Assembly (NCBI RefSeq): GCF_000177675.1
Contig: NZ_ADGX01000086.1
Span: forward strand, 1 to 35,865
DNA: 35,865 nucleotides
DNA from: Parafrankia sp. EUN1f
Lineage (GTDB): Bacteria > Actinomycetota > Actinomycetes > Frankiales > Frankiaceae
Direction of reading: 5' to 3'
The stretch's first letter is position 1, and each line of letters opens with the position of its first letter. The translations under genes and the position numbers were made by a program. The notes beneath the pieces are model-generated. The model was not told the DNA's origin, searched no databases, and saw only the letters and a list, made by a program, of their open reading frames with translations. Positions 905 to 12,337 of this stretch are shown piece after piece.

Positions 905-2320
905 GTGATCGACCGACTGTGGCTGTACCCACCGCTCGCCTACGGGCGGCTGGGCCCGTCGCCCACTCCCTGTGACAACTACGTCTGGGGCCCCAACGAC
1001 CTGTCGTCGCGGGGCACCGGCCGCACGACGGTCCAGCCGGCCGAGACCCTCGACGTCGCCGAGGACGGAACAGTCACCCTCCGGCAGCCCGCGACGGTCA
1101 CGTTCAAGGACGCCGCGGGCTTTCGCCCGGTGTGCCCGTTCTTCGAACTGCACGGCGCCTGGACCGCCGACGGCGTGGCCCACGAGGGGCCGATCACCGG
1201 CGAGGTCCTCGCAGCCGCCGGCATCGCCCTCGGCGAGGTGCGCTGGGAGGTCGAGGTCGCCAACCTCAAGCCGCACCACTACACCCAGGTTGACGACGAC
1301 CGGATCGTCGCGACGGTGAGCATCGCCGGGGACGACACCGGGCGCCGGGCGCTCGACGGGCGCTCGCCCGCGGGGTCCACGGCGCCGCTGGTGCCCGCCG
1401 GCAGCCGCGTCCCGCTGGGCAGCGTGCAGCTGACCAGGCCGAACGCCGAGCTGCCGGAGCTGCGCCTGCGGTTCACCCCGGCCGTCGGCGCCGTGTACGG
1501 GCCGACGGACCTCCCGAACCGCACGAGCGACTACGTCCTGCCCCCGGACCGGCTCGTCCTCAGCCCGCAGTCACCCTGGGTCGGCTTCGCGCTGGGCGGC
1601 GACGACCCGCGGACCAACCCGGGCGGGTTGTTCGCGGGCGCGGAGGGCAACGCCGGTCTCGGGCTCGTCGACGACGTCTGCGACGGCACGGTGCGGGTCG
1701 TCCTGCCGGCGGGGCCGGGCCGGCCGGCGGAGCTGAGCGCGGTGGCCCGCATCGTCGTCGGGCCGCCGGACTTCGCGCCCGACCAGCGCCCGTTCACCTC
1801 GGCCGCGGACGGCCTGACCGACCGGGTCCGGCGCGCCGACGTCCGCGACCCCGCCTACGCGGCGGACGCCGCCCGCACCACCCTGGAGGTCCGCGACCTG
1901 TTCGAGCGGATCCTCGAGACGGTCGCCACGGTGAACGTCGACGCCCAGAACGACCGTGCCCGGTTCGAGAACAGCGCGATCGCGCGCAGCCGGGGGGAGC
2001 CGGACGAGGCGGCCCGGGACCGGGCGTTCCCGGCGTCCGAGCCGCTGACCGACCACCCGTTCCCGCTGACCGAGGCGGCACGGGCACGCCACCGCCGGTT
2101 CCTGGCCCTGGAGGTGCTGGAGGATGTGCTGCGGGAGCGGCCCGACCTGCTCCCCACGGTCGTGCGCGAGCCGGCGACGAGCGAGCGCTACTACGACCGC
2201 CGCATGCCGGCGCTGATGCGCGGCTCCGACCGCCATCCCATGCACATCACCCGGCGGCAGTACGACCTGCTCCGGGCCTGGAGCGCCGCGCTGCGGCGGG
2301 ACATCGAGCCGGGCACGTGA
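905..2320 (+). CDS. LodA/GoxA N-terminal-half-like protein, subunit of a split CTQ oxidase
   Basis: This 471-aa protein starts at GTG 905, five bases after a strong AGGAGA. Several blocks follow the order I recall from the N-terminal half of the L-lysine 6-oxidase LodA: YPPLAYGRLGPS (8-19; LodA HPSIGVARLGN), VTFKDAAGF (65-73; LodA VNFKDEAGC), a VRWEVEVANLK segment (112-122), an LVDDVCDGTV segment (254-263), GPPDFAPD (286-293; LodA GSPDFAPE), and near the C-terminus MHITRRQYDLLRAW (446-459), which matches the block just before LodA's catalytic half. The protein then stops, so it lacks the CTQ Cys and Trp. Those appear in the protein encoded at 3943. It has no signal peptide. Its stop overlaps the next start (GTGA at 2317-2320), implying translational coupling. 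Assignment as half of a split oxidase is inferred from motif order; no alignment was run. Confidence 0.7.
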   Translation: MIDRLWLYPPLAYGRLGPSPTPCDNYVWGPNDLSSRGTGRTTVQPAETLDVAEDGTVTLRQPATVTFKDAAGFRPVCPFFELHGAWTADGVAHEGPITGEVLAAAGIALGEVRWEVEVANLKPHHYTQVDDDRIVATVSIAGDDTGRRALDGRSPAGSTAPLVPAGSRVPLGSVQLTRPNAELPELRLRFTPAVGAVYGPTDLPNRTSDYVLPPDRLVLSPQSPWVGFALGGDDPRTNPGGLFAGAEGNAGLGLVDDVCDGTVRVVLPAGPGRPAELSAVARIVVGPPDFAPDQRPFTSAADGLTDRVRRADVRDPAYAADAARTTLEVRDLFERILETVATVNVDAQNDRARFENSAIARSRGEPDEAARDRAFPASEPLTDHPFPLTEAARARHRRFLALEVLEDVLRERPDLLPTVVREPATSERYYDRRMPALMRGSDRHPMHITRRQYDLLRAWSAALRRDIEPGT

Positions 2321-3807
2321 CGGTCCTGCTGCAGATCGGCCGCCGCCCGCCGGACCCGGAGCCGACCCCGGGCGGGCACCCGATGCCGGCCGACCGGCCC
2401 GCGCCGGGCGCGGCACCGGACGCGGCACCGGGCACGGTGCGCGACGCCACCGCCGAGGTGCGCCTGTTCCACAGCGCGCACGGGGCACACCTGTTCGTGG
2501 TGGACGGCAGCCGCGTCTACGACCTGCCCGGTGACGTCGAGGGGCAGGTGCGGTCCTGGCTGGACTCGGGCGGCGCGGACGGGCTCGGGCCCGGACCACG
2601 CGCGGCCCTGGGGCTGGCGCCCGATGCGCCCAGGCGCATCGACGGCCGCCCGATCGACCCGCCACCGCTGTCGGCCCTCTCCCTGAACGTCATGCAGGCG
2701 TGCAACATGTCGTGCGCCTACTGCTACGCGGATGAGGGACGCTTCGGCGGTGCGGCCCGGGTGATGCCGCGCGAGGTCGCCTTCGCCGCGGTCGACCGTC
2801 TCCTCGCAGAGTCGCGGCCGGGCGCCGACGTGGTCGTGGGGTTCATGGGCGGTGAACCGCTGCTCGCCGCGGACCTCGTCCACGAGGTCACCGCCTACGC
2901 GGCCCGGGCGGCCGAGACCGCCGGGCGCCGGGCGCGGTTCTCCCTCACCACGAACCTGACCGAGCTGCGCCCGGCGGACGCCCGCCTTTTCGCCCGGTAT
3001 CCCTTCGCCGTCTCGGTGAGCCTCGACGGCGACCGGGACCGCAACGACGCGCTGCGCCGGTTGCCCGGCGGGGCCAGCGCCTACGACCGGGTGCGTGCCG
3101 GGCTCGACCTGATGGCGCGGCACGGGCGCCCGCGCCATCTCGCCGCGCGGGTCACCGTCACCCCGGCGGCCGGCCGGCTGCTCGACGTCCTGGACCACGT
3201 GATCGGCCTCGGCTTCGACGAGGTCGGTTTCGCCGCGGTCGTCGCGTCGCCGGACCCGGCGCTGGAGTTCACCGGGCCGCGGTTCGAGGGGTTCCTCGAG
3301 CACATGGTCGAGTGCGGTGAGGTGGCGCTGCGCGAGCTGGCCGCCGGCCGCCGGTACCCGTTCGGCAACTTCGAGACGGCCATGGCGCAGATCCATCGCG
3401 GCAGCCACCGCCCCTACCCGTGCGGCGCGGGCGCGGGGTATCTCAGCGCGGCCGCGAACGGCGACCTGTTCGCCTGCCACCGGCTCGTCGACGACCCCGG
3501 CTTCGCCATGGGCTCGGTGACAGCCGGCCCGGACCGGGCGGCCCGGGCGGAGCATCTGGCCCGCGGCCACGTCGACCGGATGAGCCCGTGCCGGTCCTGC
3601 TGGGCCCGGTACCTGTGCGGGGGTGGCTGCTACCACGAGGTCGCCCGGCGCGGGCGGCCCGGGTGCGACTACATCCGCGGCTGGCTCGCCTTCTGCCTGC
3701 GGGCCTACGTCGAGCTGTCGGCGGCGCGCCCCGACTACTTCGAGGGGCTGGCGGCGTCTGCCGGGTATGGCGGCGGCGGCAGTGATCCGACGACCGTCGC
3801 CCGCTGA
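2317..3807 (+). CDS. Radical SAM/SPASM maturase, QhpD-like
   Basis: This 496-aa enzyme has the radical SAM cluster motif C129-x3-C133-x2-C136 (CNMSCAYCYADEGRFGG), the SAM-binding GGE motif (MGGEPLL, 178-183), and a C-terminal SPASM region with Cys369, 387, 425, 428, 434, 438, 450 and 460, enough for two auxiliary Fe-S clusters. The layout (CGAGAGYL, later a CRSCWARYLCGGGC block, ending in RPDYF) is that of the quinohemoprotein amine dehydrogenase maturase QhpD, which makes Cys-to-Asp/Glu thioether bonds in its partner subunit. The first 45 residues are Pro/Ala-rich; LFHSAHGAHLFVVDG (50-64) begins the usual N-terminal module. The gene overlaps the upstream one by 4 bases and sits between the two LodA-like halves. 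The likely role is to modify one of them, probably the Cys-rich segment of the protein at 3943. The substrate is inferred. Confidence 0.85.
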   Translation: MTVLLQIGRRPPDPEPTPGGHPMPADRPAPGAAPDAAPGTVRDATAEVRLFHSAHGAHLFVVDGSRVYDLPGDVEGQVRSWLDSGGADGLGPGPRAALGLAPDAPRRIDGRPIDPPPLSALSLNVMQACNMSCAYCYADEGRFGGAARVMPREVAFAAVDRLLAESRPGADVVVGFMGGEPLLAADLVHEVTAYAARAAETAGRRARFSLTTNLTELRPADARLFARYPFAVSVSLDGDRDRNDALRRLPGGASAYDRVRAGLDLMARHGRPRHLAARVTVTPAAGRLLDVLDHVIGLGFDEVGFAAVVASPDPALEFTGPRFEGFLEHMVECGEVALRELAAGRRYPFGNFETAMAQIHRGSHRPYPCGAGAGYLSAAANGDLFACHRLVDDPGFAMGSVTAGPDRAARAEHLARGHVDRMSPCRSCWARYLCGGGCYHEVARRGRPGCDYIRGWLAFCLRAYVELSAARPDYFEGLAASAGYGGGGSDPTTVAR

Positions 3808-3942
3808 CGGCCGCCGCGTGAGCTGGACGCGCGGACCGCACAGGTGCGGCCGCGAGAGCAGGACGCGTCGCCCATCAGGCGCGCCGCGGGGACACCGACG
3901 CGCCGCCCGACGAGGCGCGGCGCACGAGGAAGGGGCTGGAAC

Positions 3943-5931
3943 GTGACGGAACCCGTGACCGGACCACCCGCGGGCAAGATCTTTCCCCGAAACCTGACGG
4001 CGCGGGCGGACCACGTCGTGCGCGGCAACCCGGCGGCCTCCCGTCCCGAGAGCGGTGTCGACAACTGCTATCCGGGGCTGGAGTTCGACCAGCGCAACCT
4101 GGACAAGGCCTTCTTCCCCGGGCTGACCTTCGAGTTCCACCGCCCGGACGGTGCCGTGCTGCGCCGCGTCGGCGCCACCGGCATCGCCGCCGAGCGCGGC
4201 CTGACCGACGCGGACCTGCCCCTGCATCTGTGGGCCGTCTGCGGGCGCACGACCGTCGACCAGACCGAGGCCGCCATCCCGACGTTCAGCTGCGCGAACC
4301 TCGGCGGGCTGGACGTCTGGCGGCTGGTGCACGACCTCATGCCGGGGCGGATCGCGATCCTGCTCGGCCCGGCGCCCGGCATCTCCTCGCCCGGCGCGGA
4401 CGTCGTGAACGGCTCGCTCAACGGGTTCCGCCGCGGCGACCGCAGTGTCGTGCAGCGCGACCCGGACGGCACGGTGCTGGCGGTCCTGGTCGCGGACCGG
4501 GCCCGCTACCTCGACCCCGAGGGTGTCATCGACCCCGAGGTCTACCTGCCCGGCGAGCTGACCCGAAGCCTGTGCGCACCATGGCAGTACGACTTCCGGG
4601 ACTGCGGCTGCTTCTACTGGGCGGCCTCCAAGCCCGACGTCGTCACCAGCGCCGACGGGCAGGTTCCCTACGTCAACTTCCAGCGCGCCGACCGCACCGC
4701 CGTCCCGCCGCCCGCGGATCTGCCGACCGAGGCCGGGCGGCGGGAGCAGGAGCTGGACTACGCCGAGATGCTCCACGCCTGGAACGACCTGGCCGTCGTG
4801 CTGGGCGGCCGGGAGACCGCCGGGGTCGCCCCGCCACCGCCGCCGGGGCCGACCGCCGGCGAGCTGACCCGGCAGGAGGTGCTCGACGAGCTGAACTACC
4901 TGGCCACCGTCGAACACGCCCTCTCGGTGGAGTACCTGTTCGCGCACTACTCGCTCGACGCGCCCCGGCTGCTGCCCGACGACGCGGACGAGCACACCCG
5001 CCGCGTGCACGCCGCGGCCACCGAGGTCTACTCCATCGCCGTCGACGAGATGCGGCACCTGCGCTGGGTCAACGAGGCGCTCGCCCTGCTCGGCCGGCCG
5101 CCGAACGTCGGGCGGGCCGGGCGCATCCACCGCCAGCTCGACCGGCCTTTCCAGCTCGAGCCGCTCACGCCGGCGCAGCTGGACTGGTTCATCGAGGTCG
5201 AGCGGCCGAGCCAGGGAACGGCCTCGGGCGTCGACGGGATGTACGTCCGGCTGCTGACCACGATCGACGCGCGGCCCGACCTCTTCCCCGAGCGGGACAG
5301 GCTCGTCCACCTCATCAAGCTGATCATCGACGAGGGGGGTGAGCACTTCCGCCGGTTCGGCCTGGTCAAGGGCCACCTCGCCGGGCTCGCACCGGAGAGC
5401 TACCTGCGCACGCTGCGGGCGGACCCGGCCGACGCGCTCACCGAGGGCCTGGCCGATCTCAGCGACCAGAACTACGCGCTGCTGCTCAACGCCCTGCAGG
5501 CGACCTTCGCACTGGGGGACAGGGCCGGCGGCCAGCTACTCGAACAGGCCCGCCGGGCGATGTTCAGCCTGCACGAGACGAACCACCTGCTCGCGGCGCG
5601 CGGCGTACAGCCTCGCTTCGAGCTGCCCGTCCCGGTCACGCTGCCCGTCCCGGTCGCCGATCATGCCGCCGGGATCCGCCGCGCCCAGGAGACCGTCGCA
5701 GAGCTGGGCGGCGCGCCGGAGCGCCGGCTCGTCCTCCAGCACGGCGCGGCGCACGAGGCCCTGCTCGCCGAGCTGCAGGCCGCCGGCATCGGCACGAACG
5801 CCCCGGGCGGCACGAGCGCCCCGGGCGGCGCGAGCGCCCCGGGCGGCGCGAGCGCCCCGGGCGGCACGAGCGCCGCGGGCAGCACGACTGCTCCGCCGAC
5901 CCAGCCGCCACCGCCCCGGACACAGGGGTGA
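3943..5931 (+). CDS. LodA CTQ-domain-like protein fused to a ferritin-like domain
   Basis: This 662-aa protein starts at GTG 3943, preceded by GAGGAAGGGG. Residues 38-230 resemble the C-terminal half of LodA. VDNCYPGLEFD (39-49) matches LodA's NCVG..CPGIEM block. CAPWQYDFRDCGCFYW (211-226) matches LodA's CPWQADFFNC, whose last Cys (516) joins Trp581 to form CTQ. By this match Asp217 equals LodA Asp512, Cys221 equals Cys516, and Trp226 (FYWAASKPD) is the quinone-forming Trp. Only four residues separate Cys and Trp, against 64 in LodA. Residues about 308-555 form a ferritin-like domain of the VioB/iminophenylpyruvate dimer synthase type (LNYLATVEHALSVEYL), with candidate metal ligands Glu324, Glu330, Glu369-x2-His372, Glu464, Glu467 and His468. 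The tail (619-660) is a Gly/Ala/Pro repeat. It ends in a GTGA overlap with the next gene. The homologies are read by eye. Confidence 0.7.
   Translation: MTEPVTGPPAGKIFPRNLTARADHVVRGNPAASRPESGVDNCYPGLEFDQRNLDKAFFPGLTFEFHRPDGAVLRRVGATGIAAERGLTDADLPLHLWAVCGRTTVDQTEAAIPTFSCANLGGLDVWRLVHDLMPGRIAILLGPAPGISSPGADVVNGSLNGFRRGDRSVVQRDPDGTVLAVLVADRARYLDPEGVIDPEVYLPGELTRSLCAPWQYDFRDCGCFYWAASKPDVVTSADGQVPYVNFQRADRTAVPPPADLPTEAGRREQELDYAEMLHAWNDLAVVLGGRETAGVAPPPPPGPTAGELTRQEVLDELNYLATVEHALSVEYLFAHYSLDAPRLLPDDADEHTRRVHAAATEVYSIAVDEMRHLRWVNEALALLGRPPNVGRAGRIHRQLDRPFQLEPLTPAQLDWFIEVERPSQGTASGVDGMYVRLLTTIDARPDLFPERDRLVHLIKLIIDEGGEHFRRFGLVKGHLAGLAPESYLRTLRADPADALTEGLADLSDQNYALLLNALQATFALGDRAGGQLLEQARRAMFSLHETNHLLAARGVQPRFELPVPVTLPVPVADHAAGIRRAQETVAELGGAPERRLVLQHGAAHEALLAELQAAGIGTNAPGGTSAPGGASAPGGASAPGGTSAAGSTTAPPTQPPPPRTQG
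5797..5886 (+). repeat. 18-bp tandem repeat encoding an SAPGG(A/T) tail
   Basis: About five 18-bp units encode (N/S)APGG(A/T), the last one diverged, in the C-terminal tail of the ferritin-fused protein. It reads as a flexible linker and could vary in copy number between strains. Confidence 0.75.
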
Positions 5932-7136
5932 CCGAAACCGTCGTCACCGGGGCCGGGCTTGCCGGCCTGACCTGCGCCTACCTGCTCGCCGGGCAGGGCC
6001 GCCGCGTTCTGGTCACCGGGTGGCGACCGGGTGACCCCGAGCCGGCATCCGGCACCAGCCAGGCACCGGGGGAGACGTCCCCGCCGGCGCGTTGGCTGGT
6101 GCTCAACGAGCTGACCATCGACCTGCTGCGGGAGGTCTGGGACGGCGGGAGCGGCCTGTTCGACGGCGCCTGGCCAATTCGGTGCCGGCACGTCCGGTGG
6201 GGTGGCTCCAGCACCGACCAGCCCCTCGAACAGCCGAGCCTGGCGGTCGACGGGGCCCGGTTGGCCCAGCGGATGGGGAGGCGGCTGGCCGAGACCCATC
6301 CGGACCTGGTCCGGCTCACCGCGGCCGGCCCCGCACCGTCGGTGGCCGAGTGGCTGATCGCCGCCGGGCACCCGTCGGCCGGGCCGGCCGGGGGCCGTCC
6401 GGTTCACATCGGGCGCAGACACATGATCAGCGCGGAGGTGGGGCTCGCGGCGGGCGAGTCCGCCGCCACGAGCCACCTGGTGGCCACCGGTCCGGCCTGG
6501 ATCTTCCTGGCACCGGTCGGACAGCGGCGGGCGCTGGTGCAGGCCATGGTGCCTGGGCCCGTCGCGGACCCGGTGCCGTTGCTGCGCCGGCTTCTGGTCC
6601 GGACAGAGCTGGGACGCCGGCTCGTGGCACCGCCCGACGCCGCCGTCGTGGTGCCCGCGGCGCCACGGTTGCGGCAACCGCCCTGCGGGCCCGGCTGGAT
6701 CGCGGTGGGTGGCTACGCTGCCCGGTTCGACCCACTCAGCGGTTCGGGGACCGCGCAGGCTGTCCGAACAGCGGTGCTCGCCGCGGCGGCCATCGACGCG
6801 ATCGACCGTGGCGCCGACGAGCTGGAGGTCCGCGCGCATGTCACGGACCGGGTCCTGACCGCCTTCACCGAGCACGTCCGCACCTGCCTGGGCCTCTACA
6901 CCTCCGCCCTGGCCGGCGGTGATCCAGCCGGCGCTGATCCGGCCGGCGGTGGTGCGGGCAGCGCGCGGACATCCTGGGGCGACGGGCGCGCCGGCCTGGA
7001 CCCGGCGGCCTGGCAGGACGAGATCGACCTGACGGCCGCCGCCCTGCGCGGGTTCGGCATGTCCGCGGCCACCTCTGCGAGGTTCACCCTGACCGGCCCG
7101 CTACCGGGCTGGAGACTGGTGCCGCACAGTCGTTAG
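5928..7136 (+). CDS. FAD-dependent monooxygenase-type flavoprotein, LodB/QhpG-like
   Basis: This 402-aa flavoprotein has an N-terminal FAD-binding Rossmann motif (TGAGLAGLTCAYLLAGQG, 7-24) and a later FAD-contact motif (RFDPLSGSGTAQAV, about 266-279), the pattern of single-component flavin monooxygenases and tryptophan halogenases. In the known systems LodB (for LodA) and QhpG (for quinohemoprotein amine dehydrogenase) are flavoproteins of this kind that oxygenate the Trp precursor of CTQ. The GTG start overlaps the preceding stop by 4 bases, which ties it to the ferritin-fused protein. A Gly/Ala-rich low-complexity insert lies near residues 325-350. The proposed role, hydroxylating Trp226 of the upstream protein, rests on context and fold type. 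A general FAD oxidoreductase is the fallback. Confidence 0.75.
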   Translation: MTETVVTGAGLAGLTCAYLLAGQGRRVLVTGWRPGDPEPASGTSQAPGETSPPARWLVLNELTIDLLREVWDGGSGLFDGAWPIRCRHVRWGGSSTDQPLEQPSLAVDGARLAQRMGRRLAETHPDLVRLTAAGPAPSVAEWLIAAGHPSAGPAGGRPVHIGRRHMISAEVGLAAGESAATSHLVATGPAWIFLAPVGQRRALVQAMVPGPVADPVPLLRRLLVRTELGRRLVAPPDAAVVVPAAPRLRQPPCGPGWIAVGGYAARFDPLSGSGTAQAVRTAVLAAAAIDAIDRGADELEVRAHVTDRVLTAFTEHVRTCLGLYTSALAGGDPAGADPAGGGAGSARTSWGDGRAGLDPAAWQDEIDLTAAALRGFGMSAATSARFTLTGPLPGWRLVPHSR

Positions 7137-7614
7137 TCGCACCGCCCGGCCAAGGTGGCCGGTGGCGGCGGCGCCAGCTCGCCCCGTGATCCACGGCTGC
7201 GTGGGCATGGCGCGGGTCGCGTTGCCTACGCGGGTTTCCGCGGTTTGCGGCTGATGCGGTAGTCGAGGACGAGTAAGGGGATGCCGCGCCGATCGTGACG
7301 GGGCCTGCGCCGCTCAGTCGGCCGGCCGCCCACCCGGCGGGTGCGACAAGTGCCGCGCTGGTGGCGATCCGCTGCCACAGCGCGGGGATCTCGCCCGGCC
7401 GCTGCCGGGCGCGCGCGACGGCTTCGCCAGCCGCCAGCGCGCCCGCGCCAACCAGGGTGCCCAGAACGGCAGTCCGCCGGCTCCGATGGGCGGTGAGAGC
7501 CGCCCCCGCCACGCCCCCGATGGCGGCCGCGGACAGGACAGCCGTTCCGCGCCGCACCGGCTTCGTCCCCTTTGCCGCCTGCCACGCGACCAACCTATCC
7601 GGATGGGTGTTCAT
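7084..7614 (-). CDS. Small membrane protein, probably frameshifted at its C-terminus
   Basis: The start is ATG 7614, six bases after GAGG in the minus strand. The first ~95 residues look genuine, with Ala/Gly-rich hydrophobic segments (AVLSAAAIGGVAGAAL, TAVLGTLVGAGALAAG, ATSAALVAPAGWAAG). After about 7280 the open frame turns into Ser/Arg/Pro-rich sequence and runs on to 7084, overlapping the end of the flavoprotein gene on the other strand. The neighbouring frame instead gives IPLLVLDYRISRKPRKPA with strong GC3 and stops at 7226. One missing base near 7270-7285 would join them into a protein of about 128 aa. I infer a frameshift or sequence error. No function is recognised. Confidence 0.5.
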   Translation of the reverse strand: MNTHPDRLVAWQAAKGTKPVRRGTAVLSAAAIGGVAGAALTAHRSRRTAVLGTLVGAGALAAGEAVARARQRPGEIPALWQRIATSAALVAPAGWAAGRLSGAGPVTIGAASPYSSSTTASAANRGNPRRQRDPRHAHAAVDHGASWRRRHRPPWPGGATNDCAAPVSSPVAGRSG

Positions 7615-7743
7615 GCACCTCGCCGTCGACGGTTGGGGTGACAGAGCTGTCTGGTCGTAGGGGGATGTCCCGTTCGGCGGGTGCGCGATGGCGCCTGAGG
7701 ACGGTCGGGACGTTCCTCCGGGAGCTGTGATTACTGTGGCGAT

Positions 7744-8397
7744 ATGGGACTGCTGGGGGATCTGATCAAGATCGTGTCCGACCGGGTGACGGGCAGCCGC
7801 CGCCATGGTGAGGCACCCTCGCGGGAGGCGGGACGGAAAGGTCGGCGGCGGTCGGCACCGACGGCCCGTTCCTCTTCCTCTTCGGTGGCAGCCGCGCGTT
7901 CCTCTTCGGTGGCAGCCGCGCGCAGTCACCCGACCCGGGAACGGGGGCGGCCGTCCCGCACGAATGTGGAGGTCTCGCCGGGCGAGTTCGGGCCGGACGC
8001 CACCAGGGAGGTCGATCCGCGTCGCATCGGGCCGGTGCGGATGAGCTACTCGCCGCAATCGGACGGGGCCCCGGATCCCGGCGAGGTCGTCTGGACGTGG
8101 GTGCCGTTCGAGGAGAACGACGGACGAGGCAAGGACCGGCCGGTGCTCGTGGTGGCCGTCGAATCCGCGGGCACCTGTCTGGCCGTGCAGCTCACCAGCA
8201 AGGACCACGACGGCGAGGGCGACTTCGTGTCCATCGGCGCGGGCGGGTGGGACGGTGAGCGCCGGCCGTCCTGGGTCAACCTGGACCGGGTGATCCGGGT
8301 GCATGAGGGCGGGATGCGCCGAGAGTCGACGGCCCTGTCGCGCGAGCCGTTCGAACGGGTCACGGACCGGCTGCGTCAGCGCTACGGCTGGCGCTAG
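7744..8397 (+). CDS. PemK/MazF-like protein without an adjacent antitoxin
   Basis: This 217-aa protein has a C-terminal PemK/MazF-type domain (about 105-217): GEVVWTWVPFEEND followed by GKDRPVLVVAV is the usual start of the fold, where the Arg in the DRPVL block normally helps RNA cleavage, and LTSKDHD carries the following conserved segment. It matches a family of solitary PemK-like proteins I know from actinobacteria. No small DNA-binding antitoxin precedes it. The first ~100 residues are a basic, Ser/Ala-rich extension containing a tandem repeat. The sequence before the ATG (TTACTGTGGCGAT) has no clear Shine-Dalgarno, so the transcript may be leaderless. Whether it is a toxin or a housekeeping nuclease cannot be told. 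Confidence 0.75.
   Translation: MGLLGDLIKIVSDRVTGSRRHGEAPSREAGRKGRRRSAPTARSSSSSVAAARSSSVAAARSHPTRERGRPSRTNVEVSPGEFGPDATREVDPRRIGPVRMSYSPQSDGAPDPGEVVWTWVPFEENDGRGKDRPVLVVAVESAGTCLAVQLTSKDHDGEGDFVSIGAGGWDGERRPSWVNLDRVIRVHEGGMRRESTALSREPFERVTDRLRQRYGWR
7877..7922 (+). repeat. 24-bp tandem repeat in the PemK-like gene
   Basis: The unit CCTCTTCGGTGGCAGCCGCG plus CGTT occurs once in full (7877-7900) and once nearly complete (7901-7922). It encodes the duplicated SSSVAAAR segment of the N-terminal extension. Confidence 0.8.
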
Positions 8398-8460
8398 ACC
8401 CATTAGCGGGCGAGATCTCGGTCTGACCCTCGAGACGAGGAACGCCTGTCCGCGCAGTGA

Positions 8461-8949
8461 TCAGCTGACTCGCGGCTGAGGCGGTGCGGGCGCCGGAGGA
8501 GGGCCGTCGAGCCACCAGGCTGACCGTTGCTCCTCGTGCAGACCCGTGAGAGTCGGATACCAGGTGCTGTTCTCGGAGAAGTAACTCCTCATGGCCGGCG
8601 ACGAGTTGAAGAGGTCCAGAATCCACGCACGCCAGGATTCGAGATCTTTCTTGGAGTACTCGAGTTTCCGATCCCAGATGCACTCCATGATGTCGAGGCA
8701 GAACTCGGTTATCGCCAGCACCTGGTTGCGATCCTGGCGGGTTGAGTCCGCCGCTATCGGCTCGTCCTCATAAAAATGGGGTCGCCACTGGGGATACTCG
8801 ATGAAGACTCTGTCTACCTGAAGGGCCAGATCGGTCGTACTGTTGTAGGTCGTGACCGTCCGATTTCGCCTGGCATCCGACACGGACAGTGCCGTCGCGC
8901 CGATGGAAAGCATCAGCGCGACGACCGCGACAATGTTCGAGGTTTCCAT
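8461..8949 (-). CDS. Membrane-anchored hypothetical protein (162 aa)
   Basis: The protein begins METSNIVAVVALMLSIGATA, a single N-terminal transmembrane segment, followed by a soluble helical region rich in Trp, Glu and Asp (a YPQWRPHFYEDEP segment, then LAITEFCLDIMECIW) and a Pro-rich tail. The form is like the small actinobacterial proteins with one membrane helix and a DUF4760-type cytoplasmic part, but I cannot name a family with certainty. Its ATG lies six bases after the stop of the GNAT gene on the same strand, so the two are very probably one transcript and may act together. Confidence 0.65.
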   Translation of the reverse strand: METSNIVAVVALMLSIGATALSVSDARRNRTVTTYNSTTDLALQVDRVFIEYPQWRPHFYEDEPIAADSTRQDRNQVLAITEFCLDIMECIWDRKLEYSKKDLESWRAWILDLFNSSPAMRSYFSENSTWYPTLTGLHEEQRSAWWLDGPPPAPAPPQPRVS

Positions 8950-8955
8950 CCGAGG

Positions 8956-9585
8956 TCACTTTCCGGATGCTGCGATGACAAGTGGGTGGTCGGGAGGGAG
9001 ATCGTAGCCCTCCTCGTACAGTGCTCGAACGAGGTCGGTCAGGTCGTCGCCGGTCGGCGGATCCGGCCGGGCGGCCGGTGCCCACATCAGGAGCATCGGT
9101 TTTTCACCGTCTCCCTGGAGAAGCGGAACCCGGAAGTCGGTGGTGGGCAACCTGCGGGCGCCTCTGTTCTCGTAGAAGCAGATACGCCGTCGGCGTGCGA
9201 CGGTCGTCCGTGGATCGATATCAGGCTCGTCGGGGTCCTCGACCTCGAGGACAATCGCTGTCACGCCCCGATGGCGCTGGGCGTCGGTACGGATGTGATA
9301 CCAGAGCTCGCCGCCGAACCCACCGCCGCGATACCTCTCGTCGATCGCGAGGTATTCAAGATAGAATGTCTGGACCGATCGGAGCACGTAGGCCGATGCA
9401 AAGCCCAGCGCAATGCCCTCGTCAAGTGCGACGTAAGCGATGCGAACACCCTCGTTGACATCTCGCACTATCTCCTCGAACGGCATCCGCTCGCCTGCGG
9501 GGAAGGCCTCGAGATAAATTCGCTCCACTGAACTGACCTGCGACGGCTCGAGACCAGGTAACGCCGTGACGCGCATACCCGGCAT
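8956..9585 (-). CDS. GNAT family N-acetyltransferase
   Basis: This 209-aa protein has the acetyl-CoA-binding motif A of GNAT enzymes: EYLAIDERYRGGGFGGELW (77-95), with the (R/Q)xxGxG/A loop as RYRGGGFG. A β-strand (AIVLEVEDPDEPD) and FYENRGARRL follow in the positions expected for motif B. The substrate is unknown. The ATG at 9585 has no clear Shine-Dalgarno and a TAGTAT-like element abuts it, so leaderless translation is possible. The membrane protein gene follows after six bases. Confidence 0.8.
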   Translation of the reverse strand: MPGMRVTALPGLEPSQVSSVERIYLEAFPAGERMPFEEIVRDVNEGVRIAYVALDEGIALGFASAYVLRSVQTFYLEYLAIDERYRGGGFGGELWYHIRTDAQRHRGVTAIVLEVEDPDEPDIDPRTTVARRRRICFYENRGARRLPTTDFRVPLLQGDGEKPMLLMWAPAARPDPPTGDDLTDLVRALYEEGYDLPPDHPLVIAASGK

Positions 9586-9904
9586 ACTAGCCGGTATGGC
9601 GGCATCCTGTATGGATTACTGCCCGTCAACCTTGACGTCGACGGCCACACTTTGTGCTGCTGAACGAGGTGACGGTGTGGTCGGCGCGACCGGCTGGCTG
9701 ATCGCCGCAGGGTGCTCGGCGGGAAGGATCGTGGTCAACGCACTGGCGGTCTTCTTCCGCCTGTACTAGCGTGAATGTCGTCACTGTTTGTGTGTATACC
9801 TTTACTCTGGGTTAGATGTCGTGGAGGAGGATCGCCGGCGCAATCCAGTCCGGCTGGCAGGGCGATCCGTGCCGGCGAACAGGCGATGAGCCCAAGCGGA
9901 GAGG
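9586..9904. other. Divergent intergenic region, no gene seen
   Basis: This gap separates the GNAT gene (minus) from the GGDEF gene (plus). A short open frame crosses it but is Cys/Ser/Thr-biased and lacks a ribosome binding site. A weak promoter for the GGDEF gene may be TTGTGT (9788-9793) and TTAGAT (9812-9817). I see no strong hairpin or repeat. Confidence 0.4.
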
Positions 9905-12337
9905 ATGATGTCGCACGGGGAGGTCACTCGAGGTACCGCACCGGAGCAGGACGCGTCGTACTGTGGCGCGGCCATGTTCCGCCGAATCGTCGGTGCGTGC
10001 GCGGTGGTCGCGTTCGTGGTCCTGCTCGCCCCCTTCGTCCTGCCCTCGCGCGGCGCCGACCTGGCAGTCCGCCTCGGCGGCATGGCCGCGATGGGGTTTC
10101 AAGGCGGCTGTGAGCTCTGGTCGACGCCGCGGGCGAGGGGCGCCGAGCGACGCTGGCGGCTGCTCCTGCTCACTGGATGGATCGGGGTGGCGATCGGCCT
10201 GATGATCACGTCCGTCAGGGCGTTGTCGCTGGGACAGAACCCTTTGCCGCCGCTGTCGGGGACGGAGCCCGCCTACCTGGCGTTCATTCCGTCGTCGATC
10301 GCCGCGGTGCTTGCCTTCCCCACGGACCCGCTCAGGCCGGAGGATGAGCCGGCGGACACCCGGGGAACCCACTGGAAGATCGTCACCGTACTGGACGCGC
10401 TGCTTCTCGTCGGCTCGCTGAGCCTGCTCGGCTGGGTGGCCGTCTTCGGCCCGTTGGTGCGCGCGCGAGCACCGGCGCCGGCCCCTCTCGGAGTCCTGCT
10501 GGCGTTCGGCCTCGGATGTTTCCTGCTGCTGATCACAGTTCTGCTCGTCGCGGTGTTCCGGCGCCCCCGCTGCAAGGAATCATTCGTGCTTCTCGGGGGC
10601 GGGCTCGGTTCCATCACCGTACTTCTGCACGTGTCGCTGTACTTCATCGCGAGCGGCCGGCCGGAGCCCCTGCAACTGGTAGCCAGCAACGCCGTCGGCA
10701 CGATGATGATCGGGCTCGCCTGCATCGTGCCGCCGCGGCCGCCAACCGACCGTGCTGTCTGTCCCGCCGCCGTAGGTCTCGGATCCGCTCCCGGCGGCCT
10801 GGCCCGGTGGCGTGCCTGCTGGGCCGGCTGGCAGGCCGGACAGGGCCCCCGCTGGGCGAGGTTGCTCCTTCCGTACGTTCCGCTGGCGGCGTTGGGCGTG
10901 CTGGTGGCCGTCCAGATGGCGACGGAGACGCACGTCAGAGCGAGCGAACTACTCGGCGTCCTCCTGCTTGTGCTCGTCGTGCTGATCCGTCAGCTGCTGA
11001 CCTTGGCGGACAACATGAGGCTGCTGGACAGGGCTGAGCAGAGCCGCCGCCAGCTGCGCCACCAGGCGCTCCATGATCCCCTGACCGGGCTGGCGAACCG
11101 TGTCCTGTTCGGCGACCGGCTGGAACACGCGGTCGCTCGGCCCAGCCGCGGCCGGCTGGCGCTGCTCTTCTGCGATCTTGATGACTTCAAGACTGTCAAC
11201 GACACCTTGGGCCATCCTGCCGGCGACGAGCTGCTGCGGCTGGCCGCTCGGCGGCTGGTTGGCTGCGTCCCGCCGTCGGACACGGTTGCCCGCCTCGGGG
11301 GCGACGAGTTCGCGGTTCTCCTGGAGGACGAGACCGCGGACGCCGAGGCGGTCGGCAGGAGGGTGCGCGCGGCCGTCGGTGCGCCGTGCCGCCTCGCCGG
11401 GCAGCCATGCGCCGTTCAGGTGAGCATTGGCCTGGCAGTCGCCGAGCCGGGATCTCCGATCAGTTCCGAGAGCCTGCTCCAGCAGGCAGATCTCGCCATG
11501 TACGCCGCCAAGCAGCGGGGCAAGGACAGCCTGGTCGTCTACGGCCCCGGCCTCGTCGCTCACGGCGGCTCGTCGACAGCGCGCCGTGCGCTGCACCAGG
11601 TGTTGCGGGGAGATCCCGCGGGTGGCGTCCTCGACGTTCTCTACCAGCCGATCGTCGATCTGACCCACGGTCACCCGGTGGCCTACCAGGCCTCGACGCG
11701 GTGGCGCCACCCGATCCTCGGGCATCTCACGGGAGAGCAGACGGTCGCGGTGGCGGCCGGCGCAGGGCTGAGCCACCAGCTCGAACAGGTGATCCTGGAC
11801 CGTGCCTGCCACGACATCGGCCGCTACCGAAGGCGGACAGGAAAGAACGTCGCCGTCTACGTCGGCGTGTCGGTGGCGCGGTCGACCCGCGACCTGCCGG
11901 CCGACATCGAGACGGCGTTGGCCGCGTCCCACCTCCCGGTGCAGGCACTGGTCCTGAGGCTGTCGGAGACGGAGCGCCTGGATGAGCAGGCCGCTGACAG
12001 CCTGCGTACATGCGCCGCCCGTGGGCTGCGCCTCGCGCTGAACGGCATCGCCGGCAACCACAACAGTCTTCTGGCGCTGGACGAGCTGCCCATAGGGATA
12101 CTCATGTTCGACAGCTCGCTCGGAGGTCGTGCCGCTGGCAGTGGGGGCCGGGCCGACCTGCTCCGCCGTGCGGTGATCGCCTTCGCTGAAGACCTGGGTC
12201 TCATGGTCATCGCGACCGGCGTCCAGAGTCGGCAGCAGGCACGTTCACTGGCGCGCCACGGATGCCGCTTCGCACTGGGACGGCTGTTCGGACCACCGGC
12301 CGCACTCCCCGGGGCTGCCGGTCGTCCAGCGGCTTAG
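9905..12337 (+). CDS. Membrane GGDEF protein with degenerate EAL domain
   Basis: The ATG at 9905, or 9908 which is better spaced, follows GGAGAGG. The N-terminal ~375 residues hold about ten hydrophobic segments, forming a membrane sensor module. The GGDEF domain (about 385-550) starts HDPLTGLANR and contains RLGGDEFAVLLEDE, intact for diguanylate cyclase activity. The I-site position reads PPSD instead of RxxD, so product inhibition may be absent. The EAL domain (about 570-790) is present but its catalytic motifs are lost: EAL is QAS (AYQASTRW), VNVS is VGVS, DDFGTG is NGIAGN, and AEGVE is ATGVQ. I infer a c-di-GMP synthase whose EAL domain serves binding or regulation only. Confidence 0.9.
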   Translation: MMSHGEVTRGTAPEQDASYCGAAMFRRIVGACAVVAFVVLLAPFVLPSRGADLAVRLGGMAAMGFQGGCELWSTPRARGAERRWRLLLLTGWIGVAIGLMITSVRALSLGQNPLPPLSGTEPAYLAFIPSSIAAVLAFPTDPLRPEDEPADTRGTHWKIVTVLDALLLVGSLSLLGWVAVFGPLVRARAPAPAPLGVLLAFGLGCFLLLITVLLVAVFRRPRCKESFVLLGGGLGSITVLLHVSLYFIASGRPEPLQLVASNAVGTMMIGLACIVPPRPPTDRAVCPAAVGLGSAPGGLARWRACWAGWQAGQGPRWARLLLPYVPLAALGVLVAVQMATETHVRASELLGVLLLVLVVLIRQLLTLADNMRLLDRAEQSRRQLRHQALHDPLTGLANRVLFGDRLEHAVARPSRGRLALLFCDLDDFKTVNDTLGHPAGDELLRLAARRLVGCVPPSDTVARLGGDEFAVLLEDETADAEAVGRRVRAAVGAPCRLAGQPCAVQVSIGLAVAEPGSPISSESLLQQADLAMYAAKQRGKDSLVVYGPGLVAHGGSSTARRALHQVLRGDPAGGVLDVLYQPIVDLTHGHPVAYQASTRWRHPILGHLTGEQTVAVAAGAGLSHQLEQVILDRACHDIGRYRRRTGKNVAVYVGVSVARSTRDLPADIETALAASHLPVQALVLRLSETERLDEQAADSLRTCAARGLRLALNGIAGNHNSLLALDELPIGILMFDSSLGGRAAGSGGRADLLRRAVIAFAEDLGLMVIATGVQSRQQARSLARHGCRFALGRLFGPPAALPGAAGRPAA

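Follow-up and report, generated by a model that had tools for sequence, protein, structure and literature searches.

The locus described here lies in Parafrankia sp. EUN1f (GCF_000177675.1) on contig NZ_ADGX01000086.1, the 35,865 nt of which form the window, that is, the whole stretch of DNA analysed. It occupies positions 905–7136 and is composed of four tightly packed plus-strand genes in the order g1–g2–g3–g4: g1 (905–2320, 471 amino acids), g2 (2317–3807, 496 amino acids), g3 (3943–5931, 662 amino acids) and g4 (5928–7136, 402 amino acids). The GTG start of g2 at 2317 overlaps the g1 stop codon, and the GTG start of g4 at 5928 overlaps that of g3. Because the overlapping start also yields a g2 product that begins like the family consensus (MxxLxxIGRxPPxP), the start at 2386, used for all g2 searches and g2 residue numbering, is probably internal. 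The original prediction proposed that the locus encodes a LodA-like cysteine tryptophylquinone (CTQ) oxidase divided between two genes; all the motifs that it quoted are found in open frames at their given places.

The first gene encodes a LodA/GoxA-type N-terminal subunit that ends just ahead of the catalytic CTQ part. Single-protein scans gave 11.8 bits against LodA_N and E values of 0.003–0.004 against GoxA/LodA models. An alignment of 19 g1 proteins matched LodA-like proteins at E 1.6e-13 in hhalign, and its profile retrieved GoxA (5e-7) and LodA (7e-4) from the PDB; searches of the PDB with single proteins (phmmer) gave a best E of 0.75 for g1 and no LodA match for g3. The AlphaFold model of g1 (19 sequences) has a mean predicted local distance difference test score (pLDDT) of 74.9. 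In Foldseek it returned 44 matches at E ≤0.001, every one of them GoxA or LodA, and it superposes on LodA (3weu) with a Z score of 13.0 and a root-mean-square deviation (r.m.s.d.) of 5.6 over 307 residues (model residues 4–467, chain residues 2–424), the next unrelated rows scoring 8.9.

The third gene (3943–5931, plus strand) encodes the predicted CTQ catalytic subunit with a C-terminal ferritin-like domain, matching LodA_C at 2.9e-4 and PF12902 at 1.4e-9. In the organism's own genome, g3 alone matches LodA_C at E 0.001, under the cut-off, which several cassette relatives exceed (best 31.4 bits). In hhalign, the N-terminal part of g3 aligns with the C-terminal part of LodA-like proteins at 1.1e-7; the cores of the two match at 1.8e-10, with none of 200 column shuffles as good, and at 1.4e-12 with added relatives. 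Profile comparison of each half thus finds a LodA relation for both, as the original prediction had anticipated, and for g1 the fold agrees. As g3 residues 44–47 (PGLE) correspond to the PGIE that follows C448 in LodA, the cut falls between about LodA residues 424 and 448.

At the centre of g3 is a motif, C211-x5-D217-x3-C221-x-C223-x2-W226-x5-D232 (4573–4638, plus strand), for which we predict a CTQ between C221 and W226 and thioether bonds C211–D217 and C223–D232. In LodA, the CTQ is built from C516 and W581, according to excerpts of PMC4417212; by our count on the 3weu alignment, C516 is the Cys of PWQADFFNC and W581 the second Trp of WWPPQ, and the LodA-type CTQ Cys and Trp align with C221 and W226 (hhalign). 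QhpC, the gamma subunit of quinohemoprotein amine dehydrogenase (QHNDH), carries a CTQ (C37–W43) and three thioethers (C7–E16, C27–D33 and C41–D49), as given in the portions of PMC8172795 consulted; these thioethers are made by QhpD (PMC7876137 and PMC8172795, both in part). The two motifs can be read side by side: C211-A-P-W-Q-Y-D217-F-R-D-C221-G-C223-F-Y-W226-A-A-S-K-P-D232 in g3 and C27-x-P-M-E-x-D33-L-Y-G-C37-x-D-x-C41-W-W43-P-A-Q-x-x-D49 in QhpC. All six QhpC residues (C27, D33, C37, C41, W43 and D49) are in register in g3 (hhalign), and the C211–D217 spacing equals that of C27–D33. The g3 motif therefore covers every QhpC CTQ residue and two of the three Cys-to-Asp/Glu thioether pairs. 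The original prediction had not picked up these additional QhpC-type Cys and Asp residues.

The pattern C.P...D...C.C..W.....D is present in all 22 cassette proteins (the window, 18 loci from the survey described below, the separate loci L113 and L114, and the congener G004), and C.P...D...C...C.W.....D is present in 11 of 11 QhpC sequences, which come from 10 genomes and are nearly alike. By contrast, none of 25 LodA-like proteins, some of them close relatives, has a Cys at the place of C211 or between the CTQ Cys and Trp. These 25, from a set of 28, were read by script in 18 cases (with the Trp of L117 placed by eye) and by eye in seven (L032, L058, L060, L061, L062, L067 and L068); L084, a near copy of L081, was left out, as were L086 and L069, in which no motif was found. 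Five LodA-like proteins share the Cys-to-Trp gap of 5 seen in g3 (four by script, L117 by eye). W280 (WxxL..V; 4780–4782, plus strand) was considered as the CTQ Trp from the 65-residue spacing in LodA and rejected: W581 lies in WWPPQ, the counterpart of W226, and W280 is a later conserved Trp, matching the W-x-x-L with which both the LodA and the QhpC core end (HWSALAFI in LodA, the LodA-like profile and, compared by eye, DWRxLxxVF in QhpC). One LodA-like protein fused to a PF14518 domain (L086, G071:C14, 5130–8927, minus strand) has neither the Asp nor the Cys of the CTQ segment (PWQASLYLRKDGWWPAARPDD), so that it is dead or has another role.

Two further elements lie upstream of the motif. 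C42-x-PGL-E47 (4066–4083, plus strand) is the counterpart of C448-PGI-E452 in LodA (numbering counted on the 3weu alignment) and of C7...PGWE16 in QhpC, and may form a third thioether pair. E47 is invariant, and C42 is found in 21 of 22 cassette proteins (in L114 the residue was read from its sequence and not by the pattern script). Residues 12–41 (3976–4065, plus strand) form a highly conserved stretch, KIFPRNLTARAD..RGNP...ESGVDN, with pLDDT values of 25–42 in the blocks covering residues 1–50. This stretch is possibly a leader-like recognition segment for g2; the leader of QhpC is needed by QhpD, as stated in the sections of PMC7876137 consulted.

The C-terminal domain of g3 (residues 305–575; 4855–5667, plus strand) scores 38.6 bits against PF12902 (cut-off 22.3; E 1.4e-9), so that the fused ferritin-like domain of the original prediction is borne out. 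Its model superposes on Caulobacter CC_0557 (3hl1) with a Z score of 21.2 and an r.m.s.d. of 2.8 over 233 residues; other ferritins score about 14 to 16. All 19 rows share six residues, E324, E369, H372, E420, E464 and H468, which possibly fit a diiron ligand set by analogy with bacterioferritin. The segments EMRH and IIDEG..H align with bacterioferritin 1nf4, weakly (E 0.026), the last pair being one residue wider than the bacterioferritin ExxH. A VioB model also matches this part of g3, at 18.7 bits. At the very end of g3, the window has APGG(T/A)S repeats (5790–5895) that are absent from the 19 other alignment rows, congener included; repeats like these match further open frames in relatives.

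Domains of this kind are found near CTQ oxidases elsewhere. Among 289 alphaproteobacterial genomes, LodA_C is present in 10, PF12902 in 6 and both in two, on separate contigs in G111 and adjacent in G200; Caulobacter, the control genome, was positive for both. In G200 (L087, G200:C281, 1119–4180), a stand-alone PF12902 gene directly precedes a LodA-like gene on the same strand; according to the LodA start chosen, the two frames overlap or are separated by about 50 bases. The consulted portion of PMC4417212 describes PF12902 genes in the neighbourhood of lodA in fungi, as well as bacterial LodA-like proteins that carry a fused PF14518 or catalase-type domain; we observe fusions to PF14518 in L085 and L086. 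A 666-residue protein (L070, G080:C7, 229–2226, minus strand) combines PF12902 with Fer4_19 and CDGSH iron–sulphur domains.

The gene between the two halves, g2 (2317–3807, plus strand), encodes a radical S-adenosylmethionine (SAM)/SPASM protein (PF04055, 1.5e-18; TIGR04085, 48 bits, cut-off 27). Its best model is QhpD (TIGR03906, 273 bits), followed by PapB (224) and the SCIFF maturase (181), and it is predicted to be a Cys-to-Asp/Glu thioether maturase. The SAM cysteines C106, C110 and C113 and nine more cysteines are invariant in 20 of 20 rows, and g2 is the best match of the QhpD model in its own genome. The last gene, g4 (5928–7136, plus strand), encodes a flavin adenine dinucleotide-dependent monooxygenase with a GxGxxG motif (GAGLAG) and a predicted Trp dihydroxylase function; it scores 64 bits against QhpG (NF049967), 34 against GoxB and 23 against LodB. 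Since g2 is nearest QhpD and g4 nearest QhpG, both maturases are closest to the type used by QHNDH.

The same assignment holds in the relatives tested. QhpD is the best model for the radical SAM protein of the cassette in three of three cases (window, L113 and L114, the last with PapB close behind at 256 against 262 bits), and QhpG for the flavoprotein in four of four (window, L016, L113 and L114), with L113 above the cut-off (306 against 240 bits). For flavoproteins encoded next to LodA-like genes, the best model is LodB or GoxB (5 of 5 tested). The original prediction had spoken of a hybrid maturation set. A combination of LodB with QhpD is rejected by the g4 scores and by those of its relatives, so that g4 is not a LodB/GoxB-type flavoprotein; the term survives in the sense of a QHNDH-type maturation acting on a LodA-type oxidase. 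A search with the g2 profile of the regions around LodA-like genes (6 to 20 kb, from which a more distant gene would escape) found no QhpD-type radical SAM gene except in the Roseibium cassette itself. The one other gene found, in L085 (G070:C78; 5508–6803, plus strand), is a divergent radical SAM gene that belongs to a different type (TIGR04463 137 bits, QhpD 59 bits); it stands head to head with the LodA–PF14518 fusion, behind which lies a GoxB-type gene. In two genomes, both CTQ systems occur side by side: in Roseibium (L083, 7483–10472), about 4 kb separate the four-gene cassette from a canonical LodA-like gene and its flavoprotein gene, and in Streptomyces (L084, G070, 5403–9604) the distance to such a pair is about 7 kb.

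A planctomycete, G1275, provides an unsplit relative. In this locus (L113), the g1-type and g3-N-type parts are joined in one 767-residue protein (8280–10580) with the full CTQ/cross-link motif. On the same strand and in a row lie a separate PF12902 ferritin-like gene (10580–12031), a radical SAM gene of QhpD type (TIGR03906, 304 bits; 6904 to about 8265, start approximate) and a QhpG gene (306 bits; 5454 to about 6881, start approximate). As L113 carries both parts in one chain, the g1 and g3 halves belong together and the split is genuine. Thus, the proposal of a LodA-like enzyme in two pieces with a radical SAM gene between them holds: two separate genes encode the enzyme in the window and in 18 of the 19 survey loci, L113 alone having it unsplit, and the ferritin-like domain is fused to g3 in the window, whereas it is a neighbouring gene in L113.

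A scan of genome contigs with g3 identified 19 loci, and in 18 of them, from Actinomycetota, Cyanobacteriota, Planctomycetota and Pseudomonadota, all four genes, flavoprotein gene included, are found in the same order and on the same strand. A chance gene order is thereby dismissed, and the neighbourhood survey called for by the original prediction confirms that the locus is real and conserved. In L025, g4 is a weak match (E 1e-4) with an open frame in place. The remaining locus, L027 (7995–9909, from a metagenome-assembled genome of Bryobacterales), is a decayed remnant in which g3 is broken by a stop codon and a frame change, g2 is shortened and g1 has no match; its broken g3 retains the CTQ/cross-link motif. 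Because of its broken frames, L027 was excluded from all alignments; the near-identical L011, L012 and L021 were all retained. In the cyanobacterium G1477 (L114), g1–g2–g3 are accompanied by a divergent flavoprotein gene upstream.

The cassette is rare and patchy. Among 58 related genomes, a full g3 is found only in Parafrankia sp. EUN1f itself (G000) and in the congener G004, where the four genes again stand in order. An even draw of 396 genomes of the same phylum (its own included; five candidates per genome scored) yielded a match in one other genome, and that match was short and of LodA type. Comparison by blastp of flanking open frames of at least 80 amino acids (the first 20 kb of the window and 18 stored loci of 8 to 18 kb) revealed none common to more than two other loci; further conserved partner genes are ruled out within these flanks, and the four genes therefore form a unit. 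In a tree of concatenated g1–g3, rows of one phylum cluster together (97/96 for Actinomycetota), and L114 and the Pseudomonadota rows sit on long branches; the tree gives no support for transfer between phyla.

We regard the LodA homology of g1 and of the N-terminal part of g3, together with the presence of the CTQ and cross-link residues, as shown at the level of sequence comparison. On this basis, we consider it probable that the cassette encodes a two-protein, O2-dependent CTQ oxidase of amines or amino acids, with a QHNDH-type maturation and a fused ferritin-like diiron domain. In the mechanism that we propose, g1 would provide the LodA-type N-terminal scaffold and g3 the catalytic segment. 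g2 would first link C211 to D217 and C223 to D232, and perhaps C42 to E47, by thioether bonds; g4 would then hydroxylate W226 twice, as QhpG does, and C221 would couple to W226 to give CTQ. The matured g3 segment would dock on g1, closing the active site. The quinone would oxidize a primary amine or amino acid and be re-oxidized by O2, yielding H2O2; O2 is the likely acceptor because the cassette contains no cytochrome. Finally, the ferritin-like diiron domain would most likely remove or use H2O2 or act on the product, which is the least certain step.

Several results weigh against this proposal. All four assignments by single-protein score fall short of a curated cut-off: g1 reaches 11.8 of 26.3 bits on LodA_N (PF17990), g3 21.0 of 25 on LodA_C (PF18417; 24.3 for a sub-stretch), g2 273 of 453 on TIGR03906 and g4 64 of 240 on NF049967. 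L026 has a Thr at the place of C42, the C42–E47 spacing is 5 as opposed to 9 in QhpC, and C223–D232 is one residue off the QhpC spacing. In the AlphaFold model of g3, made from a shallow alignment of 19 rows, residues 206–237 and 241–281 have pLDDT below 50 and the CTQ region is not ordered. The fold search with this model gave only ferritins among the top rows listed; LodA or the QHNDH gamma subunit may match its N-terminal part further down. The evidence for a role of the ferritin-like domain is one of association.

The low g2 score leaves room for another chemistry, in which g2 would make a different modification of g3, such as a Cys–Trp bond, and the QhpC-like residues would be kept for a purpose such as metal binding. 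PapB, which comes close to QhpD in L114 (256 against 262 bits), also makes Cys–Asp links, on a different peptide (PMC8172795, same portions). This is nonetheless very unlikely in our view: the extra cysteines are found in QhpC and in the cassettes, both of which have QhpD-type genes, and in none of the 25 LodA-like proteins, which have no QhpD-type gene of their own in the regions examined, and the C211–D217 spacing is the same as that of C27–D33. The QhpC-like maturation and motif also raise the question of whether the CTQ part is a dehydrogenase, as in QHNDH. Its electrons would then pass not to O2 but to an external carrier or to the ferritin-like diiron site, which is part of the same chain and could serve as a redox partner. 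With a scaffold of the LodA/GoxA oxidase type, and with neither a cytochrome gene in the cassette nor a conserved flanking gene, a dehydrogenase appears unlikely, however.

As to the ferritin-like domain, its fold alone would suit iron storage, or a passive, structural role outside the oxidase chemistry. Against this, the oxidase of L113 and a LodA-like gene of G200 each have a PF12902 gene at their side, such genes also occur in the vicinity of lodA in fungi, domains of the PF14518 or catalase type are fused to other LodA-like proteins (for the fungal genes and in part for the fusions, PMC4417212, as excerpted above), and the six putative metal ligands are invariant; we therefore rate it as highly improbable. 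Because an iron or haem partner recurs with CTQ oxidases, H2O2 removal is the plainest common reason for the association and tailoring of the imine product the bolder one.

A convergent origin of the tryptophylquinone systems has been suggested, and QhpC is described as mostly random coil, both in the consulted part of PMC7876137. Comparison of the CTQ segments argues for another history. The LodA-like core matches QhpC at E 9.7e-6 with 4 QhpC rows (none of 200 shuffles as good) and at 4.1e-5 with 11 rows (none of 300); whole alignments give 8e-4. The g3 core gives E 0.04 and 0.066 with 4 rows, an hhalign probability of about 1% and 27 of 200 shuffles as good, so that the direct match is not significant; with 11 rows and L113 and L114 added, it becomes so, at E 8.3e-4, a probability of 24% and 1 of 300 shuffles as good. 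The register is identical in every core comparison, at hhalign probabilities of about 1 to 24% for g3–QhpC and 24 to 83% for LodA–QhpC; whole g3 against QhpC gave only a chance match in the ferritin part. PF08992, the QhpC gamma subunit family, had no match in g3 at E 1 and none in three g3 stretches at E 10, the filters removing most matches above 0.1. Contrary to the published suggestion, the QhpC and LodA CTQ segments likely share ancestry, as far as these profiles indicate; we go no further than likely because the probabilities are modest, the compared segment covers few residues and the QhpC rows differ little from one another.

It is unlikely, though less so than the alternatives above, that the likeness of QhpC to the LodA and g3 segments is convergence driven by chemistry. 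Beyond the published suggestion, the shared stretch of about 30 residues and the weakness of the g3–QhpC match on its own speak for it. Yet the shared residues exceed the reacting ones (A-D, WWPAQxPD, PGxE and WxxL), the LodA–QhpC match is unreached by column shuffles, and the cassette family lies between LodA and QhpC. Building on shared ancestry, we tentatively propose, at somewhat less than even confidence, that the cassette is a living intermediate: QhpC would be a stripped-down LodA catalytic segment, the QhpD/QhpG route would once have been used on LodA-type oxidases, and the LodB-only route would have arisen by loss of the cross-link cysteines and the radical SAM gene. In the same proposal, the fused diiron domain would carry out the last cofactor oxidation, proposed for the haems in QHNDH, or convert H2O2 and the imine to a further product.

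The cassette shares with the LodA/LodB and GoxA/GoxB systems (PF17990, PF18417) the g1 scaffold, the PWQxDxxxC...W CTQ segment of g3 and a flavoprotein partner. It differs from them in being split and in its extra QhpC-type Cys/Asp pairs, its QhpD-type radical SAM gene, its flavoprotein nearer QhpG and its ferritin-like fusion. With QHNDH (QhpC, QhpD and QhpG), it shares the positions of the cross-link and CTQ residues and the QhpD-like and QhpG-like maturases, but its CTQ segment sits inside a large LodA-type enzyme; the haem alpha subunit, the beta subunit, the protease QhpE and the exporter QhpF are not among the four genes or conserved flanks, to which this search was confined. PF12902 proteins such as Caulobacter CC_0557 (3hl1) have the same ferritin-like domain, which in g3 is fused to a CTQ catalytic segment. 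The LodA-like fusions to PF14518 (L085 and L086) or catalase-type domains (PMC4417212, as excerpted) also pair a CTQ oxidase with an iron or haem domain, but that domain is of another family, the enzyme is unsplit and no QhpD-type gene was seen beside L085 or L086. In the open-licence literature, at the level of titles and abstract openings and with subscription papers mostly outside, we found no report of a split LodA, of a radical SAM gene accompanying a LodA-type enzyme or of LodA–QhpC homology. The parts are of known kinds; what appears to be new is their combination, including the extra QhpC-type Cys/Asp residues of g3.

With its four genes, the cassette would offer a compact setting for the cross-linking of a large catalytic protein by a radical SAM enzyme, and it presents a natural fusion of an oxidase segment with a ferritin-like domain. 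Because QhpC cross-link residues, QhpD/QhpG-type maturases and a LodA scaffold are found together in one cassette, a shared origin of the two CTQ families can be put to a direct test.

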